Source: Gammaproteobacteria bacterium MedPE (GTDB lineage Bacteria; Pseudomonadota; Gammaproteobacteria; Enterobacterales; Psychrobiaceae). Taken from it: a stretch of 64,000 nt of DNA. The stretch lies in contig MPDF01000002.1 of the NCBI GenBank assembly GCA_001874365.1, positions 1-64,000 of the forward strand, read 5' to 3'. Shown piece after piece: positions 43,464 through 46,128 of the stretch (position 1 is its first letter; every line of letters begins with the position of its first letter). Made by a program: the position numbers and the translations under genes. The notes beneath the pieces are model-generated. The model searched no databases, was not told the origin of the DNA, and saw only the letters and a program-made list of their open reading frames with translations.

Positions 43464-44330
43464 ATGTCGTTTATTAATGGGATTTTGTCTGGACTTGGTT
43501 ATATCATTAATACTGTTTTTTGGTTTATTCCTATTTTTTTGTTGGGCATTTTAAAACTTCTGCCAATGACACGATTACAACAAGTGCTGAGTTATATCAT
43601 TGACGGTTGTGCGAGCGGATGGATCAAAGTTAATACGATTAATCAGCGTTTATTTAGTCGTACAATAATCAATACCAATGAATTGCCACCTTTATCAACG
43701 AAAGAGTGGTATATGGTGATAGCTAATCATCAATCATGGGTTGATATTTTAGTGCTACAGCGAGTGCTTGATGGCAAAGTACCTTTCTTAAAGTTTTTCT
43801 TAAAACAGCAATTAATCTTTGTTCCTATCATCGGACTAGCGTGGTGGGCATTAGATTTTCCCTTTATGAAACGATACAGCAAAGCGCTGTTAGCGAAGAA
43901 GCCGCACTTACGTGGCAAGGACGTTGCTGCGACGCAAAAATCTTGCGAGAAGTTCCAACTCAAACCCGTTAGCGTTGTCAATTTTGTTGAAGGTACGCGC
44001 TTTACCCAACAAAAGAGTGCGCAACAGGGTAACCCATATTCTTCGTTGTTGCGTCCAAAAGCTGGTGGGTGTGCCTTTGCGCTTAATGCAATGTCTGGTC
44101 GATTAAATCAGTTAGTCAATGTCACCATAGCGTATCCTAATGGCATTCCATCGTTTTGGGATTTTATTTGTGGTCGGGTAAATGAAATAAAGCTTGATAT
44201 ATCGGTTGAAGAAATTGACGCTGAATTGGTGGGGGATTATGAAAATGACCTTCAATATAAAGCGCGCTTTCAACAATGGCTGAATGACAAGTGGCAGGAC
44301 AAACAGATCACTTTAGACAGACTAAAATGA
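43464..44330 (+). CDS. yihG: Acyltransferase YihG-like (PlsC family)
   Basis: 288 residues. N-terminal hydrophobic helix (about 9-33), then the PlsC catalytic motif NHQSWVDILVLQ (HX4D), KFFLKQQLIFVPIIGLAWWALDFPFMKRYSK, and VNFVEGTRFT (the EGTR motif). This is the YihG/acyl-phosphate-glycerol group, a second 1-acyl-sn-glycerol-3-phosphate acyltransferase. In E. coli yihG stands near dsbA and srkA, as here, which supports the naming. The ATG has AAGGAG upstream. It converges with dsbA at a bidirectional terminator. Confidence 0.88.
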   Translation: MSFINGILSGLGYIINTVFWFIPIFLLGILKLLPMTRLQQVLSYIIDGCASGWIKVNTINQRLFSRTIINTNELPPLSTKEWYMVIANHQSWVDILVLQRVLDGKVPFLKFFLKQQLIFVPIIGLAWWALDFPFMKRYSKALLAKKPHLRGKDVAATQKSCEKFQLKPVSVVNFVEGTRFTQQKSAQQGNPYSSLLRPKAGGCAFALNAMSGRLNQLVNVTIAYPNGIPSFWDFICGRVNEIKLDISVEEIDAELVGDYENDLQYKARFQQWLNDKWQDKQITLDRLK

Positions 44331-44387: not shown

Positions 44388-44993
44388 TTAGTCTTTCAGT
44401 TGCACTAAGTAATTCACTAATTTATCAAATTGTTCTTCGCTAGTAATTTTCTGATTATTCACCTGATACTTACCATTGATGATAAATGTTGGAACACCAG
44501 TAATTCGAAAACGTTTATTGTCTTGACGCATTTGATTAACCATACGCTTTAATTTGAAACTTTTCACGCCAGCATTAAATTTCTTTTCGCTAATACCTGC
44601 ATCCATAAATAACGGTTTGATATCGTCCATTGAAGCGATTGGCATGCGGGTTACATGAATCGCTTGAAAAATCTTAGGTACCATTACGTCATTGCTTTTT
44701 AGGAGCTTTGATAGACTGTACGCCTTAACTAGTTCTGTTCCTACTTTGCCACCTAAACTTTCAGTGTGGCTTTTACGAAAGGTAACATCACTTGGCAGTG
44801 TTTTCTTAAGGTTATTGACTAATGGTTCAAAGCGGTAACATGATGGACACAAGAATGAAAAGTACTCGACAACTTCAGGTTTCTTGCTGGCTACTTTGCT
44901 AACAACAAAATAGTCTGTACCTTCTTTAAAGTCAGCGGCGTGAGCAAAGGTGCTCATGATAAAAGTAAAACATAATAACGCGAATTTTTTCAT
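44388..44993 (-). CDS. dsbA: Periplasmic thiol:disulfide interchange protein DsbA
   Basis: 201 residues from the ATG at 44993; a longer frame to 45050 is not a normal DsbA N-terminus. Signal peptide MKKFALLCFTFIMSTFAHAA. Oxidises cysteine pairs in exported proteins. The active site is C49-P-S-C52 in EYFSFLCPSCYRFEPL, where most gammaproteobacterial DsbA have CPHC; the His is a key determinant of the high redox potential. The cis-Pro loop is intact (RITGVPTFIINGKYQV). The neighbourhood (srkA upstream, yihG convergent) is canonical. It is likely co-transcribed with srkA (gap 127 bp). Confidence 0.95.
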   Translation of the reverse strand: MKKFALLCFTFIMSTFAHAADFKEGTDYFVVSKVASKKPEVVEYFSFLCPSCYRFEPLVNNLKKTLPSDVTFRKSHTESLGGKVGTELVKAYSLSKLLKSNDVMVPKIFQAIHVTRMPIASMDDIKPLFMDAGISEKKFNAGVKSFKLKRMVNQMRQDNKRFRITGVPTFIINGKYQVNNQKITSEEQFDKLVNYLVQLKD

Positions 44994-45120
44994 TGTAAGT
45001 TTTCCTAAAAATTTTTCGGATAGGTTATCATCTATCGAGTAAATTACCACCGATGATAGTGGTTAATCATGTATCAAAGATTAACAAATGTTTAATTAGT
45101 TCCCTAGACGCTGACCTTAA

Positions 45121-46128
45121 TTAAAAATTAAAACTAGGCAAGGTTAACGGTGGCTCTTGTAATTGTGCTATTTGCTCTTTTAGTGCCAGCACTTGTTGTT
45201 CCCAATATTGTGGTGTATTAAACCATGGGAAGTTATGTGGAAATGCGGGATCACTCCATCGTTTGGCAAGCCAATACATGTAATTGACCATGCGCATGGC
45301 GCGTAATGGTTCAATAAGTTGTAATTCTTTCGTGTCAAAATCGCAGAACTCATTATAACCTTCTAATAACACCTCTAACTGTAAAGACTGAGCAGCGCGA
45401 TCGCCGCTGAGCATCATCCATAAATCCTGAATTGCTGGGCCGTTGACGCTGTCATCAAGGTCGACAAAATGTGGACCATTATCAGTCCATAGAATGTTAC
45501 CTGGATGACAATCGCCAAATAACCGCTGTTGCGTACAATGGCCAACCTCTTCAAGCTTTTTCTGGGTTAAGTCGACTATCAGGTTCAACGCTGTATCAAA
45601 CGGCATTCTTAAATAATCAGGAATTTCTTCGTAACCTAGTAAAAATTTCTGTGGTTCGAGTAGAAAGTTCTCACTGTTTAAGGTGAGTCTTTTGGTAAAT
45701 GGTTTAGCTTGTCCTACCTTATGGATACGCCCCATAAAGCGTCCAACCCATTCAAGGTGATCGAGATTGTCTACTTCAAACTGACGGCCACCACGGCACT
45801 CAAACAATGCAAAATAAAATCCTTTATATTCGTGAAGGGTGCTCTCTTTAATATCTAATGGGGGAATGACAGGAATTTCTTGATTTGCTATTTCGATGCT
45901 AAAGCTATGTTCTTCAATGATTTGCTCTGCAGTCCACCTGGCTGGACGATAGAATTTGACGACATATCGGAGCTCGTCATCAGCCGTAAATTGATACACT
46001 CTGTTCTCGTAACTATTTAGTGCCATTAAACCTGACGCAGGGTAAACACCGGTCGATTCAATCGCATCAAGCATGAAATCGGGCGTTAATAGTGCGTAAT
46101 CAGCATTCATAGTGTTGTCTTTATTCAT
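45121..46128 (-). CDS. srkA: Stress response kinase A (YihE)
   Basis: 335 residues. RdoA/YihE Ser/Thr kinase of the APH-like fold that counters programmed death under stress in E. coli and pairs with the Cpx/DsbA stress context. ATP and catalytic regions visible: VVKFYRPARWTAEQIIEEH, GDCHPGNILWTDNGPHFVDLDDSVNGP (GDxHxxN and DxDD). The ATG at 46128 is used here; MNADYALL at 46110 is an alternative. It overlaps the DUF3630 gene by 8 bp and is followed by dsbA, the usual E. coli-type order. Confidence 0.94.
   Translation of the reverse strand: MNKDNTMNADYALLTPDFMLDAIESTGVYPASGLMALNSYENRVYQFTADDELRYVVKFYRPARWTAEQIIEEHSFSIEIANQEIPVIPPLDIKESTLHEYKGFYFALFECRGGRQFEVDNLDHLEWVGRFMGRIHKVGQAKPFTKRLTLNSENFLLEPQKFLLGYEEIPDYLRMPFDTALNLIVDLTQKKLEEVGHCTQQRLFGDCHPGNILWTDNGPHFVDLDDSVNGPAIQDLWMMLSGDRAAQSLQLEVLLEGYNEFCDFDTKELQLIEPLRAMRMVNYMYWLAKRWSDPAFPHNFPWFNTPQYWEQQVLALKEQIAQLQEPPLTLPSFNF

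Follow-up and report, generated by a model that had tools for sequence, protein, structure and literature searches.

A DsbA with a CPSC active site in Gammaproteobacteria bacterium MedPE, and the absence of the usual histidine from the readable DsbA1 motifs of its genus

Mutants of E. coli DsbA in His32, the second variable residue (X2) of the C-X1-X2-C active site, are less oxidising, and this residue is treated as important for the oxidising power of DsbA. In B. subtilis BdbD the same motif reads CPSC. His occupies X2 in about 79% of DsbA homologues (PMC12724015, citing Quan 2007) and CPHC is found in more than 70% of them (PMC4460558), which agrees with an earlier note on this DNA, made by a model from the sequence, that CPHC is the usual motif; the His is a common feature among DsbAs and not a defining one for the class. 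As for the redox potentials, M. tuberculosis DsbA (MtbDsbA, CPAC) at -99 mV and B. subtilis DsbA at about -80 mV are both more oxidising than E. coli DsbA (EcDsbA) at -122 mV (PMC3792642), while -229 mV is given for C. trachomatis DsbA (CtDsbA, CSAC; PMC5193440). Since CPAC goes with -99 mV but CSAC with -229 mV, the potential of a natural His-less DsbA is not predicted by its motif. The combination of CPSC with a Val before the cis-Pro (Val-cisPro) is described for some Helicobacter HP0231-like oxidoreductases (PMC4460558). Our literature search under "Cys-Pro-Ser-Cys" returned no DsbA paper, and in the search for BdbD with CPSC the passages returned on CPSC concern CcmG or Helicobacter proteins, not BdbD.

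The window analysed here is a stretch of 64,000 nucleotides from Gammaproteobacteria bacterium MedPE (Enterobacterales), whose genome assembly (G000; 3.25 Mb in 180 contigs) is 80.9% complete. Its features are collected in Table 1, where DsbA1 denotes the product of the dsbA gene in the window. The earlier note had placed a DsbA with a CPSC active site at this locus, and the translation bears it out, the motif being encoded by TGT CCA TCA TGT; the cis-Pro loop, which it had called normal, indeed reads GVPT.

Table 1. Features around dsbA1 (positions of the window) and the gene of its paralogue elsewhere in the genome
Feature	Position	Strand	Basis or details
yihG-type acyltransferase, converging on dsbA	43464..44330	+	NCBIfam NF058536, 411 bits, cut-off 260
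dsbA (DsbA1), 201 aa	44388..44993	-	Pfam DSBA; 4dvc; E. coli DsbA homology
cis-Pro loop GVPT, residues 166-169	44487..44498	-	
Active-site CPSC, residues 49-52	44838..44849	-	codons TGT CCA TCA TGT
Ser codon TCA of CPSC	44841-44843	-	
Signal peptide, residues 1-19	44937..44993	-	read by eye; leader conserved in genus
srkA-type kinase, immediately upstream of dsbA and on its strand	45121..46128	-	NCBIfam NF008738, 484 bits, cut-off 194
DsbA2 (paralogue, CGHC, Thr-cisPro)	G000:C104:50528-51208 (L004 1339-2019)	+	

On the minus strand, dsbA1 is read from an ATG at 44993 to position 44388. The mechanical open reading frame reaches 57 bases beyond this conserved ATG (window 44994-45050), to a GTG at 45050; the ATG was taken as the start because the apparent signal peptide beginning there is conserved in the genus. 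The mature chains of V. cholerae-type and E. coli DsbA line up with DsbA1 from residue 20, right after this leader. The protein scores 64.7 bits against Pfam PF01323 (DSBA; cut-off 25.6), matches the solved DsbA 4dvc with an E value of 1e-39 over query residues 18-200, carries both the CxxC active site and the cis-Pro loop expected of a DsbA, and is 33% identical to the DsbA of E. coli K-12. Against the NCBIfam equivalogs for DsbA it stays below the cut-off (151.4 of 290 bits for NF047695 and 145.9 of 279 bits for NF008198), and these two are still its best NCBIfam matches. The whole-length homology to solved DsbAs suggests a thioredoxin fold with an inserted helical domain; an AlphaFold2 run on 4 sequences gave a poor model with a mean pLDDT of 48. 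A DsbA-like disulfide isomerase, as DsbC, ScsC or Wolbachia alpha-DsbA2, was considered and rejected: this family is marked by Thr-cisPro and an added oligomerisation domain (PMC6450060), whereas DsbA1 has Val-cisPro, and its 201 residues align with monomeric DsbA from end to end, with no added domain.

The gene neighbourhood, which the earlier note had called canonical, is indeed that of E. coli K-12, where the order is srkA-dsbA-yihF-yihG: srkA and yihG flank dsbA here as well, yihG having the same orientation as in E. coli, where yihF lies between it and dsbA. With respect to srkA-dsbA, the gene thus stands at the orthologous position.

When the motif is followed across the genus, the Ser turns out to be the lesser part of the observation. 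A readable DsbA1 motif was obtained in 8 of 9 genus genomes, the ninth (G008) being cut by a contig end, and in none of the 8 is there a His at X2: six have Ala and two sister species have Ser, the motifs being CPSC in this species and its sister, CPAC in five and CAAC in G004. Sequencing error as the source of the Ser is unlikely, because the separate genome of the sister species, whose DsbA1 is a 98% identical protein, has the same CPSC with the same TCA codon. The survey of relatives which the earlier note had proposed therefore cuts two ways: within the genus CPSC is confined to the two sister species, and the absence of His extends to all the readable motifs of the 9 genomes. In a tree of 77 rows the genus DsbA1 proteins form a clade supported at 99/97, with the two CPSC species nested among the Ala-bearing members. 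Moreover the X2 codon is TCA in both CPSC species and GCA, GCC or GCT in the Ala species, and the Ser probably came from Ala by one base change and not directly from His. From these sequences we infer that the changes ran in the order His to Ala to Ser. The feature to be explained is the genus-wide absence of His, rather than the Ser itself.

The earlier note had suggested looking for DsbB in the genome, and one match is present in G000 (C104:1108-1554, E value 2.2e-43); 9 of 9 genus genomes have a full-length canonical DsbB in which the CxxC and the second pair of Cys are both present. The N-terminal domain of DsbC-type proteins occurs in 8 of the 9, with two copies in G000, and that of DsbD likewise in 8; the latter was not found in G000, a genome 81% complete. 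A separate observation concerns the genus member G003, where a second, weak DsbB match lies close to a DsbA-like match (L131 G003:C389:6859-7227 and G003:C389:7419-7838), possibly a dedicated oxidase pair.

It could be supposed that dsbA1 is decaying and that its motif simply drifts, as the genus has lost the His and G004 even the Pro as well. However, the substitution rates show strong purifying selection on dsbA1: the comparison of the two CPSC species gives a dN of 0.010, a dS of 0.56 and a dN/dS of 0.019, with a weaker second estimate of 0.151 at a dS of 1.6 between G000 and G001, while in three further species pairs dS was saturated. Both catalytic Cys and the cis-Pro are retained as well, and E24, E37 and K58, residues along the buried water channel in E. 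coli DsbA (PMC9952396), are kept together with Val-cisPro in every genus DsbA1 row covering them (gap cells were skipped in the residue counts). With DsbB also kept in all nine genomes, decay is highly improbable. At position 63, in the surface loop for substrate and DsbB, Phe is found in 30 of the 33 CxHC outgroup rows, while DsbA1 here has Ser, and Ser or Thr occurs in 4 of the 9 genus rows; with F63 replaced, the partner-binding surface is therefore somewhat altered.

The loss of His is not confined to this genus. Of 247 genomes from the order, at least 186 match the pattern E[FY]FS[FY]xCPxC, and the pattern with an X2 codon starting with A, G or T and with X1 left free had matches in 50; among the 54 matches listed for the latter, 21 have Ala, 17 Ser, 4 Tyr and 12 Asn. 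The 12 Asn rows come from 12 genomes, all of family f6, and represent a DsbA-like protein with an unusual CHNC (e.g. G013:C1:906033-906062); in G013 it sits on a weaker DsbA-like protein, beside a CGHC DsbA. In family f27, which comprises two genera with genomes of 2.2-2.9 Mb and one further genus, the DsbA of every one of the 16 genomes searched has CxSC (15 CPSC and 1 CSSC; L103-L118). CPSC is accordingly no singular oddity: CxSC is found throughout the f27 genomes searched, and no readable motif of the present genus has His. The f27 proteins form a separate clade (100/99) with Ile-cisPro, and their Ser codon is AGY in the 14 CPSC rows listed and TCT in the CSSC row; judged from these sequences, the Ser at X2 in f27 is of an origin separate from that in the genus. 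On a tree of 157 rows, built by a quick method with the motif masked and with many open forks, the fewest changes between His and non-His number 16, of which 9 are forced by well-supported branches. These rows (113 with His and 44 without) were enriched for His-less proteins by the choice of regions and give no frequency, and five DsbA-like rows whose motif the search expression could not read were dropped before the counts, namely the DsbA1 of G008, a single protein of G022 and another of G011, and the two proteins with CPHC from G004 and G005. Families f7 and f11 contain genomes with one CPHC and one CPAC DsbA, some of them in tandem (L070, L035, L140, L138 with L147, L139 with L150).

Does another DsbA keep the His? 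The earlier note had recommended a check for a second DsbA with CPHC, and none was found among the seven PF01323 matches of G000 (80.9% complete; one match, on C76, is incomplete, as its contig ends before the motif); what the genome has instead is the paralogue DsbA2, with CGHC. In the genus at large, the pattern FxxxCPHC gave 5 matches in 4 of 9 genomes and none in G000, G001, G002, G006 and G007, the sister G007 being rated 100% complete; the pattern requires Phe four residues ahead of the first Cys and is not exhaustive, and its reversed control matched 3 times, in 3 genomes, so that a match by itself carries little weight. Of these matches, only those of G004 and G005 were also recovered among proteins by a DsbA profile: a third, divergent DsbA-like protein with FWLGCPHC (L136 G004:C55, L137 G005:C44).

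DsbA2 itself was found in G000 and in 7 of the 8 other genus genomes, the exception being G005. Outside the genus, 30 genomes were searched, and what matches it best there are canonical DsbAs; DsbA2 appears to be restricted to the genus. All 8 DsbA2 have His at X2 and none has Pro at X1, where five have Gly and one each Ser, Val and Ile, while DsbA1 has Pro at X1 in 7 of 8, with the CAAC of G004 as exception, and never His at X2, so that the one motif is nearly the mirror image of the other. As read by eye, a Cys directly follows the hydrophobic leader in 6 of 8 DsbA2 proteins, as in lipoproteins. These features raise the question of a split duty, in which the basic DsbA1, with CP[A/S]C and Val-cisPro, would be a specialised or milder oxidase, and the lipoprotein-like DsbA2, with C[G/S/V/I]HC and Thr-cisPro, would keep the His for other oxidation or for isomerisation. 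The presence of DsbA2 in nearly all genus genomes, the exchange of Pro and His between the two motifs and the purifying selection on DsbA2 (ratio 0.073) all speak for it, and CGHC or CIHC with Thr-cisPro is known from DsbA-like isomerases (PMC6450060). However, G005, rated 100% complete, has a His-less DsbA1 and no DsbA2, though it does have the other DsbA-like protein with CPHC; in G004 the Pro of DsbA1 is lost along with the His; and DsbA2 has a long stem with no resolved sister in the 77-row tree and is without the added domain of the known oligomeric isomerases. Moreover in genus g43 of f27 the CxSC protein is the sole match to the DsbA query in 12 of 12 genomes, and therefore the loss of His needs no such partner. 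The mirror pattern may be a coincidence, given this long stem and g43, which lost its His with no second DsbA match. On balance such a division of labour is unlikely, and we hold equally little expectation that the CPHC dipeptide has been divided between the paralogues, Pro with Val-cisPro in DsbA1 and His with Thr-cisPro in DsbA2, as two oxidases of different potential and different place in the envelope served by one DsbB. Because G000 has in DsbA2 a second DsbA-family protein with the His, DsbA1 need not be the main oxidase.

The earlier note had also expected the Ser to shift the redox potential. For a single substitution in E. coli DsbA this is plausible; for a natural His-less DsbA, however, the motif gives no such prediction, as the values for CPAC and CSAC quoted above illustrate, and the potential of DsbA1 would not be predictable from the Ser in its motif. 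One may ask whether other changes restore a strongly oxidising site, either an Arg beside the CxxC, at position 35, or the strongly basic surface that the genus proteins have. All 9 genus DsbA1 carry Arg at position 35, and 15 of the 16 f27 proteins carry Arg or Lys there, whereas the figure for the CxHC outgroup is 9 of 33 proteins; the net charge from E24 onward has a median of +10.5 for 8 DsbA1 of the genus and of -1 for 105 proteins with the His from outside it; and positive charge around the active site has been proposed to raise the potential in BperDsbA and DsbL (PMC12724015). On the tree, however, the association of a basic residue 35 with the loss of His does not reach significance (median p 0.625 over 9 independent pairs), the f27 proteins are not basic (median charge -2), and the His-bearing proteins outside the genus range from -13 to +14. 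The raw counts for Arg/Lys35 are suggestive, and the basic charge is a trait of the genus that f27 does not share; compensation is not shown by these comparisons, and we regard it as unlikely.

To sum up, DsbA1 is very probably the orthologue of the housekeeping periplasmic DsbA, and would be a working, DsbB-coupled oxidase despite its lost His, because the rest of the machinery is kept: the Pro at X1, Val-cisPro, E24, E37 and K58, and DsbB. Its Cys49-Cys52 disulfide would be handed to newly exported proteins, and the canonical DsbB, whose gene lies in another part of the genome, would re-oxidise the enzyme, with DsbC-type proteins also present. In its history, the His of the CxxC would have been lost to Ala before the known genus members diverged, the step from Ala to Ser would have followed in the ancestor that this species shares with its sister, and the protein would have stayed a selected working oxidase throughout. 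Counted against this reading are the NCBIfam scores below cut-off, the change at F63, the lack of a DsbD match in the 81%-complete G000 and the weaker selection estimate of 0.151, while the existence of His-less DsbAs that are known oxidases, for example MtbDsbA (PMC3792642), supports it. The oxidase function and a potential somewhere in the known DsbA range are what we infer. Apart from the loss of His, dsbA1 is probably an ordinary housekeeping gene, and its CPSC is one of several natural losses of the DsbA His and no new kind of enzyme. In the genus with Ala and Ser, in f27 with Ser and in further Ala lineages, the loss of His32 has been replicated independently by natural evolution, and these cases bear on the question whether a lower potential is tolerated in a housekeeping oxidase or is restored by other residues.

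Compared with the known systems, DsbA1 is most like the V. cholerae-type DsbA (4dvc, 1bed, 2ijy) and E. coli DsbA (1a23), with which it shares whole-length homology, the Pro at X1, Val-cisPro and E24, E37 and K58, and in E. coli also the neighbourhood from srkA-dsbA to yihG, whereas it differs in having CPSC for CPHC and in that the genus proteins are far more basic. The BdbD of B. subtilis (BsDsbA) resembles it in the CPSC motif. It is also an oxidase, at the potential given above (PMC3792642), but belongs to a Gram-positive and has a calcium-binding thioredoxin fold (PMC3961690). M. tuberculosis DsbA (Rv2969c) is alike in its site of CP, a small residue and C, with no His, being CPAC as in most of the genus, and is strongly oxidising; unlike DsbA1, it has Thr-cisPro and a VKOR-type partner (PMC3792642), and it belongs to a distant DsbA class. 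C. trachomatis DsbA likewise has no His at X2, but also no Pro at X1, and it is described with a potential of -229 mV, six cysteines and no complementation of E. coli (PMC5193440). Finally, the f27 DsbAs share the CxSC site with DsbA1, while they differ in their clade, in their Ile-cisPro and in the AGY codons of the Ser in the listed CPSC rows.
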